Under the pieces are notes generated by a model. That model did no database searches, was not told the origin of the DNA, and saw nothing but the letters and a program-made list of their open reading frames with translations. Made by a program: the position numbers and the translations under genes. This document shows, piece after piece, positions 39,126 through 42,663 of a DNA stretch of 64,000 nt. Positions within the stretch are counted from its first letter, which is position 1. The number at the start of each line of letters is the position of its first letter. The stretch is taken from the NCBI GenBank assembly GCA_016235345.1, contig JACRLG010000007.1, positions 62,001-126,000 on the forward strand, written 5' to 3'. This DNA comes from Deltaproteobacteria bacterium. Its GTDB lineage: Bacteria > Desulfobacterota > Desulfobacteria > Desulfobacterales > Desulfatibacillaceae.

Positions 39126-39776
39126 TTATTTCAAGTCTTTGAAAAAATTGGATGAAAGCTCGGTGATGATGTCCGCGAAGGTGGATTTGGCGTCCGGGTC
39201 CACGTAGGAGATCACCCGGCTGTTGTGGAGGGAGACCATGCCGTGAAGGAGGCTCCAGGCCTGGATAACTGCGGTCCTGGCCTTGGCGTTATTGATCGGG
39301 CCTTCCATGCCTGCGGATGCTGCCAAGTTCCGGGCCGCGCCTGCGGCGAGCTCCGCCACCTGCATGGAGATTTCCAGCTCCCTGGCGGCAAGGCCTTCCA
39401 GGGGGGTGCCAAGGTAATCGTCGTGCTTGGGGGTGCGGCCCGTGAACATTATCTCGTAGTACACGGGGTTTTCGATGCCGAAACCGACGTAGGCGAAGGC
39501 CGCCGCCCGTCCCTGGGAAAGGGGGTCGCCTGATGAGCCGAGCGCGGTTTCCAGGCGCTCCTTCAATAAGGTGAAGCCCTGGATGACCAGATGGAGGTAG
39601 ATTTCATCCTTGGAGGCGAAAAAGTTGTAGAGGTTGGGCGCACTCATGGAAAGGCGCTTGGCGAGCGCGCGCATGGTGAGGGCCGGGAAGCCGTCGTCGG
39701 CGATCAGGGCAAGGGCTGCCTCAAGAACCCGTGCTCGGATTTTTTCCAGGGCCTCGGGGGAGCGGGGGGGCTTCAT
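39126..39776 (-). CDS. TetR-family transcriptional regulator
   Basis: This 216-residue regulator has a TetR helix-turn-helix at the N-terminus (ALALIADDGFPALTMRALAKRLSMSAPNLYNFFASKDEIY, about residues 20-60) and a larger ligand domain. The start at 39776 overlaps the alpha/beta hydrolase stop by four bases (ATGA), which sets the start and means the two are co-translated. With the hydrolase and the crotonase just upstream, it probably senses an acyl-CoA or lipid. Confidence 0.88.
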   Translation of the reverse strand: MKPPRSPEALEKIRARVLEAALALIADDGFPALTMRALAKRLSMSAPNLYNFFASKDEIYLHLVIQGFTLLKERLETALGSSGDPLSQGRAAAFAYVGFGIENPVYYEIMFTGRTPKHDDYLGTPLEGLAARELEISMQVAELAAGAARNLAASAGMEGPINNAKARTAVIQAWSLLHGMVSLHNSRVISYVDPDAKSTFADIITELSSNFFKDLK

Positions 39777-40954
39777 CCGGCGTTTTCCGTCGAAAGGCTT
39801 TCGGTTCGCTCGATTATCCAAGCGCCGATAAGCGACAGGGCCAGGGGAATGTTTCCTATCTGGCAGTGGTCGGCGGCGTTTTCCGCGCTGGTGAAGACCC
39901 TGCCCGTGAGTGATCGGGCGTTCTTATAGGCCCGCATCTCCTTGTGGAAAAGGGATATCGGTATGAAATGGTCGCTGGTTCCGGCCAGAAGAAGAACGTC
40001 CTGGGTGACTTTTTCCGAAAACGGGCGGGTGTTGTAGCGTTTTGCCGCGTGGAACACGGCGGAAGGGCGGTCTATCCCGAAAACCCCCATGCCCCGGTCC
40101 ATGCCCCAGGCGGTGAAGGAGTCGCGCGCGGCTTTTTTGAGGGCGATTTTATCCAGAAGCCCATCGGCGTGAAGGCCGGAGAGAAGCCTTATTCCGGTTC
40201 CGAGAAGGGGTCCGCGAGCCCCGGAAAGCACCCGGAAAAAGTCGTGGATCACGTCCCAGGCCACAACCCGTTTGATTCGCGGCGAAAAGGCCGCTGCCCT
40301 CATGGCCAGGTAGCCGCCCAGGGAGAGCCCCACCAGGGTGACGCCGTCGAGTTTGAAGTGGTCCAGAACCGCGTTCACCGGCCTTTCCCACTCGTGGGTC
40401 ATGGGAATTTTCTGGAGCCCCAGAACCTCGCCCTGGCCGGGTCCCTCGAAGAGGATGACCTCAAAACCCGCCTTTCGCGCCACGTCCGCAGAGGGGTAGA
40501 GTTCCTCCTTGGCGGAATCGAAGCCGCCGTGCAGCACCAGCACCCCCCTTGAACCGGAGGCTGGGGCCGGGAGCCTCCACGCGGGAAGAAAGCCCTTTTC
40601 GTAGGGAACCCTGTGCTCGGAAACGAGCCCCTGGTCAAATTCATCCTTTGCGTAAATCCGGAAAAGCTCCATGGCCTTATTGAACGCGACCTCCTTTTCC
40701 GGGTCGGAAAAGGGCATGAAAAATTCGGCTGACCTGTAATATCCGCTGGCGTTCAAAAGCCGCCCTTGGGCCTCCGCCTTTTCCGCCATGAGCAGAAATT
40801 GCGTTTTCCAGTCGGAAAGGGTGGCTATGCGCCCCGCAGCCTCAGAGACATCCCCGAAATCCCCGCCGCCCATGAGGCACAGCCGGTTCATCTGGAAGTT
40901 GAAATTGGTGTCGGCATGAAAGCGCCGGGTGCCCGTGGAAAAGGTGAAATCCAT
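39773..40954 (-). CDS. alpha/beta hydrolase
   Basis: This 393-residue serine hydrolase has the nucleophile elbow GLSLGGY (VTLVGLSLGGYLAMRAA), an oxyanion-hole region VLVLHGGFDSAKEE and a C-terminal acid/His region (LLAGTSDHFIP, ENAADHCQIG). The roughly 110-residue N-terminal helical part resembles FrsA/dihydropseudooxynicotine-hydrolase-type proteins. Substrate unknown. Ten bases after the crotonase stop; co-translated with the TetR gene. Confidence 0.82.
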   Translation of the reverse strand: MDFTFSTGTRRFHADTNFNFQMNRLCLMGGGDFGDVSEAAGRIATLSDWKTQFLLMAEKAEAQGRLLNASGYYRSAEFFMPFSDPEKEVAFNKAMELFRIYAKDEFDQGLVSEHRVPYEKGFLPAWRLPAPASGSRGVLVLHGGFDSAKEELYPSADVARKAGFEVILFEGPGQGEVLGLQKIPMTHEWERPVNAVLDHFKLDGVTLVGLSLGGYLAMRAAAFSPRIKRVVAWDVIHDFFRVLSGARGPLLGTGIRLLSGLHADGLLDKIALKKAARDSFTAWGMDRGMGVFGIDRPSAVFHAAKRYNTRPFSEKVTQDVLLLAGTSDHFIPISLFHKEMRAYKNARSLTGRVFTSAENAADHCQIGNIPLALSLIGAWIIERTESLSTENAG

Positions 40955-41829: not shown

Positions 41830-42489
41830 TCAGTGCCGGGTGGGGCCTTTTTTGGAGTGGTCGTGGGGTGTTTGCGGCGCGGGTTTCTGCTGGCGCTCCC
41901 TTACCTGGCGTACGAGGAATTCCGCCAGGGTGAGGCCCGCCTCCCTGGCCTGCTTTTTTTGGAGTTCAAGGTTGTAGACGGTTATCAATTCAGGCGGAAC
42001 CGTGATTCCGAATTCCTTGAAAAAGGCGTCTTTCAGCTTTTTGAGGGTGGGCTCCGGTTCCGAGACAACGCTTCGCAAAAGTTCTATCTTGCTCTTGCCG
42101 TCAGCCACGCGCACGCCGGCCTTGATAAGGCTTTTCTTGCGCATTTCGGCCCGGAAAAAGGCGATGAGGGCCGCCGAAGGGCGTTCGCCCCGCTTTTCCT
42201 CGAAAAGTTTGGTGAGTTTTTCAACTGAAGGATCGGTTCCCGATACCACGGAGCGCACCAGATCAAGGGCGGATTCGCCCACCGTGCGGGAGAGCAGGTC
42301 GCGGCGCTCTTCCTTTTTTCTAAGCTCTTTTCTGAAGAAATCTATTAGGTTATCGTCCGCCCGCTGTCCGAACTCCTCCATGACGGTCTTGTGAAGGACC
42401 GCCACCGTGGGGTTGTCCTGGGATACCACGGACATTACCAGGGCGATCTTCATTTTTTCGATTACATCTGACGCATGTCTTTTCTGCAT
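41830..42489 (-). CDS. protein of three 60-residue repeats, unknown function
   Basis: This 219-residue protein consists of three copies of a 60-residue unit with no indels: VVS at 21-23, 81-83 and 141-143; Gly at 41, 101 and 161; FF/FF/VY at 51, 111 and 171; Lys-Lys at 58-59, 118-119 and 178-179. Each unit reads roughly as helix, VVS-x3-P-[ST]-[VL], helix, G, helix with LI-x-FFR-x-E-[LM]-RKK. This suggests three small helical domains, possibly nucleic-acid-binding given the basic third helix. The tail (residues 195-219) is Gln/Pro/His-rich. I do not recognise a family. The start at 42489 lacks a strong ribosome site; 42528 and 42453 are alternatives. Confidence 0.7.
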   Translation of the reverse strand: MQKRHASDVIEKMKIALVMSVVSQDNPTVAVLHKTVMEEFGQRADDNLIDFFRKELRKKEERRDLLSRTVGESALDLVRSVVSGTDPSVEKLTKLFEEKRGERPSAALIAFFRAEMRKKSLIKAGVRVADGKSKIELLRSVVSEPEPTLKKLKDAFFKEFGITVPPELITVYNLELQKKQAREAGLTLAEFLVRQVRERQQKPAPQTPHDHSKKGPTRH

Positions 42490-42663
42490 GGCGCAGTCCG
42501 GAAATGTGAGATTGGGCACATTTCGCATTATACGCAAAAAAATGTAAATGTCCAAACAAAACAGAAGGTCACAAAGGGGGAAAATAAAAAACAGGCGAAA
42601 AATCAATAAAAAACCCGGCATGGGGGGATGCCGGGCCAAAACCAACCGATTTTTATATGAAAA

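Follow-up and report, generated by a model that had tools for sequence, protein, structure and literature searches.

The closest described counterparts of the protein reported here are the N-terminal accessory modules of hybrid histidine kinases and HD-GYP regulators, small soluble domains that precede PAS, REC or HD-GYP domains. The repeat unit described below shares this placement and is likewise found fused N-terminal to histidine kinase, REC or output domains. To our knowledge, bacterial two-component systems seldom have dedicated scaffolds built by repeating the docking domain itself. A further lead was the DEK_C domain (PF08766), which is like the unit in size and presumably resembles it from helix 2 to helix 3 (T..L...L.E.FG......I). 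Membership of DEK_C was rejected: in nine genomes of the family the best score of its profile was 13.7 bits (cut-off 24.8), no match fell at a unit, and hmmscan of the units returned no DEK_C.

The window, a 64,000-nucleotide stretch of a Desulfatibacillaceae genome, encodes a protein composed of three such units and a C-terminal tail. A first-pass annotation of this DNA had described the reading frame as three exact 60-residue repeats of an unrecognized domain, and it had placed the frame correctly. The features of the gene product are as follows.

41830..42489, minus strand: open reading frame of the three-unit protein, 219 aa, from the ATG at 42489 to the stop codon at 41830, stop included
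42289..42468, minus strand: unit 1, first copy of the three-helix domain, residues 8-67 (profile match; helices of the 60-residue model)
42109..42288, minus strand: unit 2, second copy of the three-helix domain, residues 68-127 (profile match; helices in the whole-protein model)
41929..42108, minus strand: unit 3, third copy of the three-helix domain, residues 128-187 (profile match; helices in the whole-protein model)
41833..41928, minus strand: C-terminal tail, residues 188-219, an amphipathic helix at 188-200 followed by a disordered end (model; orthologue comparison)

The amphipathic helix of the tail (residues 188-200, AGLTLAEFLVRQV) is conserved, and an AGLT motif starts at residue 184. 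Beyond the helix the tail is rich in Lys, Pro and His and is disordered, with pLDDT below 50 at residues 202-212 and 217-219 of the whole-protein model. Comparison of the gene with its nearest orthologue gave dN/dS of 0.184/1.11, and two other three-unit orthologues gave 0.042/0.71. Because dN is well below dS, we consider the frame to be a real protein-coding gene under purifying selection.

The 60-residue spacing was evident when the protein was scored against itself (ungapped BLOSUM62). An offset of 60 was the best of offsets 20-129, with a score of 148 compared with -120 +/- 26 for shuffled sequences (z = 10.5), offset 120 was second best, and no offset scored above 12 in 1000 shuffles. 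The same period is kept without indels in all five three-unit proteins, that of the window and four orthologues. The repeats are therefore exact in spacing, as the annotation had it, but not in sequence, given that the units share 22/60, 22/60 and 20/60 identities (~35%) in pairwise comparison. Of the recurring residues it had listed, VVS at 21/81/141, Gly at 41/101/161 and KK at 58/118/178 are all present. The aromatic pair at 51/111/171 is FF in units 1 and 2 but VY, with one aromatic only, in unit 3, and the LI-x-FFR pattern is likewise confined to units 1 and 2, the corresponding residues of unit 3 being LITVYN. The consensus of the domain is MKxxLvxxVxxxxNPTvxxLxxxFxEEFGxxPxxxLixxFxxELxKk, and conservation is highest in the hydrophobic core, at a helix cap (N-P-T/S), where helix 2 ends (E-E-F-G) and at a Phe in helix 3.

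Searches of Pfam-A, NCBIfam 20.0 and PHROGs v4 gave no curated or significant profile match to the unit, and protein and profile searches of PDB sequences gave no convincing match over it, in agreement with the annotation's failure to recognize a family. The lone low PDB E-value (0.0011, to YscD, 4alz) belongs to a short helix-loop match over 24 residues and was set aside. A literature search on the domain found nothing. As far as the searched libraries go, the unit is almost certainly a genuine, previously undescribed three-helix domain of ~55 residues.

Structure prediction of a single unit, which the first-pass annotation had proposed as a check, gave a three-helix bundle (AlphaFold2, 15 units; pLDDT 91.1, pTM 0.74) with helices at 2-16, 23-34 and 40-59 and with neither strands nor a beta-hairpin wing. 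The full-length model contains three bundles and a C-terminal helix, and the packing of the units against each other is undefined in it (pLDDT 75.6, pTM 0.34). Foldseek searches of the PDB and of viral models returned nothing below E 1. Among the chains listed by VIA-align, Z did not exceed 4.9 for the unit or 5.2 for the whole protein, values that are common by chance. Given these E-values and Z scores, we claim no fold kinship from the structure searches.

The VIA-align matches to the unit include many helix-turn-helix (HTH) and winged-helix chains, among them SETMAR, PadR/LmrR, Fur and FOX (all Z ≤4.9). The HTH of SETMAR has a three-helix core like that of the unit and aligns weakly with it (Z 4.9 over 53 residues, 3.1 A); the alignment to the PadR-family protein LmrR is also weak (Z 4.4, 60 residues, 4.2 A). 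This likeness would suit a nucleic-acid-binding protein in which three HTH-like units grip DNA or RNA in tandem, as would the basic character of the window protein (pI 9.8, net charge +11) and the probable DNA-binding half carried by one class of members (see below). However, the unit differs from HTH and winged-helix domains in that its predicted model has no wing and it has no conserved basic recognition helix, and all of its Z scores are below 5, too low for kinship. What is conserved among units is the hydrophobic core and the EEFG motif; charge is not. The net charge of helix 3 was -4 to +4 in a comparison across units, and units 1, 2 and 3 of the window protein gave +2, +5 and 0, so the annotation's suggestion that the basic third helix binds nucleic acid is not supported. 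The orthologue L062, with a pI of 6.25 and a net charge of -1, is neutral as a whole, and the single units of the HD-GYP, kinase and RHH members carry net charges of -3 to +2, many being neutral or acidic. DNA binding would also be an unlikely property for an HD-GYP protein to share with a PAS kinase. On balance, we regard a nucleic-acid-binding role as improbable.

The domain is essentially restricted to Desulfatibacillaceae. Profile searches identified units in eight of the nine genomes of the family, and in the genome that contains the window they found exactly six units in four genes: the three of the window protein and one in each of three genes outside the window, which tblastn had also identified. 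Outside the family, only two genomes with convincing units (G075 and G086) were found in samples of 194 and 389 genomes of the order, and profile searches of the class and phylum samples detected no unit beyond Desulfatibacillaceae. Marginal matches in three genomes from other families of the order (G508, G073 and G532) are fragments of 22-27 residues with E 0.002-0.01 and were dismissed as chance.

Single units in Desulfatibacillaceae always occur at the very N-terminus of the host protein. The architectures comprise a hybrid histidine kinase with two receiver domains (unit-PAS-HisKA-HATPase-REC-REC), an HD-GYP protein (unit-REC-HD_5) and a protein in which the unit precedes a weak REC-like domain. 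Stand-alone proteins are made of two, three or four units. By hydropathy, no unit-bearing member has a membrane-like segment. In the two-unit protein of G007 (L017) the units are joined by a Pro-rich linker, and a 371-aa frame in G006 (L021/L036, contig C243) has four divergent units separated by long Pro/Ala-rich linkers.

Another group of proteins, ~150-165 aa in length, combines one unit with a C-terminal half of ~80 residues that has a conserved NLI..A helix (L095:5891-6337 on contig C10 of the window's own genome, and L020, L018 and L019). Residues 32-72 of this half match the strand-helix-helix region of ORF E73 (4aai) with E 0.026, which is below significance, and no Pfam ribbon-helix-helix (RHH) family scored above cut-off. 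The half is probably a ribbon-helix-helix domain, with predicted DNA binding. The likeness to ORF E73 concerns this half of the unit-RHH proteins, not the window protein.

A phosphorelay cluster on contig C24 of the same genome (L094:4378-11192) has a counterpart (L098) in another genome of the genus. In these two genomes (G000, which contains the window, and G003), a GAF/PAS or PAS kinase gene is divergent from a REC-Hpt gene, which is followed by the unit-REC-HD-GYP gene; the stop codon of the former overlaps the start of the latter. A sigma-54 response regulator after the kinase gene was identified in G000. In G004, the gene for the REC-like unit protein adjoins a hybrid kinase gene.

A small soluble helical domain that stands before varied outputs and also forms stand-alone tandems is built as interaction modules usually are. 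We hypothesize that the unit is a cytosolic protein-protein docking module of two-component and c-di-GMP signalling and that the window protein is an adaptor or scaffold. This is the explanation that we favor, and we put it forward tentatively. Counting against it, G007 has a multi-unit protein but neither a kinase nor an HD-GYP member, and G001 and G002, which have the unit-RHH protein alone, also lack such members. The basic pI of the three-unit protein in this genus counts against it too, and would also fit nucleic-acid binding. A further point against it is the low pTM (0.34) of the whole-protein model, in which the packing of the units is not defined.

Alternatively, the units could be input domains that sense a small molecule or redox state and modulate the attached kinase, phosphodiesterase or repressor, with the tandem protein serving as a ligand buffer. 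The place of the unit ahead of PAS, REC and RHH domains is one that input domains typically take, but the conserved residues are mostly hydrophobic apart from N-P-T/S, E-E and G, and they include neither Cys nor His, nor a set of polar residues resembling a pocket. Moreover, a three-helix unit of 55 residues offers little pocket volume, and stand-alone tandems are unusual among sensors. We consider a sensory role unlikely. The unit might also do nothing other than multimerize its carriers through homotypic contacts, in which case the tandem would be a cross-linker or would form filaments. A small bundle of helices whose hydrophobic positions are conserved could act in this way, and the attached kinase, HD-GYP and RHH proteins work as oligomers, but most of these partners have dimerization domains of their own. 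Oligomerization alone seems the least probable of the readings considered here.

Orthologues of the three-unit protein were sought by a pattern scan of one genome per species (84,980 species). At least four were found, a lower bound because the patterns were narrow; all are in Deltaproteobacteria/Desulfobacterales MAGs, one of them Desulfatibacillaceae. Units at the same position in different genomes share a mean identity of 56%, compared with 34% for units at different positions. In the unit tree, the copies of unit 2 fall in one clade and those of unit 3 in another (support 76-100 and 90-95, leaving aside a single inner node with lower support). Of the four unit 1s, three group together, while that of G006, the most distant orthologue, falls elsewhere. 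Since the units cluster by position, the triplication would be older than at least most of the divergence of the family, and the tree suggests that the copies have stayed separate from one another since a time before the genera diverged (for unit 1, in three of four proteins). Neither tblastn nor pattern searches gave a match indicating a phage, plasmid or viral origin, and such a source for the gene was dropped.

An AGLT-type tail motif is also present in the orthologues and in a distant one-unit relative, L043, a 200-aa protein from another family of the order (G075) in which one unit is accompanied by an AGLSYSEFL tail. The L043 unit groups with the unit 3s in the tree (support 70). Because its tail resembles that behind unit 3 of the window protein, unit 3 plus tail may be the older form.

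Two putative transcription signals lie upstream of the three-unit gene.

42527..42554, minus strand: sigma-70-like promoter, TGGACA-16-TATAAT (11/12), 37 nt upstream of the start codon
42612..42637, minus strand: intrinsic terminator-like hairpin of 10 pairs with a T run, which would end the transcript of the upstream LPG_synthase_C/DUF2156 gene

The promoter search found one site where 0.7 would be expected by chance. As judged from these signals, the three-unit gene would be set apart from the preceding LPG_synthase_C (DUF2156) gene by a candidate terminator and would have its own candidate promoter. Downstream, a crotonase gene follows after a 61-nt gap. No terminator was found in this gap, so transcription may continue into the crotonase, alpha/beta-hydrolase and TetR genes. 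These three genes look like one operon, which the three-unit gene may lead. With genes called from their first start codons, the TetR-family regulator gene (39126-39821, minus strand) has a 49-nt overlap with the 3' end of the alpha/beta-hydrolase gene (39773-40954, minus strand).

The crotonase and DUF2156 genes that the annotation had reported on either side are real, but they are not kept beside the orthologues, whose neighborhoods are wholly different (alaS and an antiporter; a nitroreductase and an MBL hydrolase; nrdD and radA; all identified by eye from translations). We therefore rejected a functional link with these genes and regard them as incidental neighbors. No signalling genes are linked to the three-unit gene in the window or in the orthologue neighborhoods, which also counts against docking.

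If the unit is nevertheless a docking module, single-unit signalling proteins would use it to meet each other or a common partner, possibly through homotypic contacts. The multi-unit proteins, including that of the window, would offer several docking sites in a row and could act as adaptors, scaffolds or competitors. A more speculative extension, which we think has a low probability, is a docking code in which the kinases, HD-GYP phosphodiesterases and RHH regulator all dock onto the two-, three- and four-unit proteins as onto a private scaffold. Were this true, a Desulfatibacillaceae scaffold would wire phosphorelay, c-di-GMP and transcription together.

A new domain with a ready profile, a confident predicted fold and clear signalling partners gives a testable role to a protein that was otherwise uninterpretable. 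The domain arose or was retained within a single family of bacteria, where several signalling proteins acquired it, and this makes it possible to trace how a signalling module is born. Among bacterial two-component systems, a tandem protein that did serve as a scaffold would be an unusual case. Like the accessory modules of hybrid kinases and HD-GYP regulators, the unit is exchanged between different output proteins. It differs from them in having no named Pfam or NCBIfam match, in its near one-family range and in its occurrence as stand-alone tandems.
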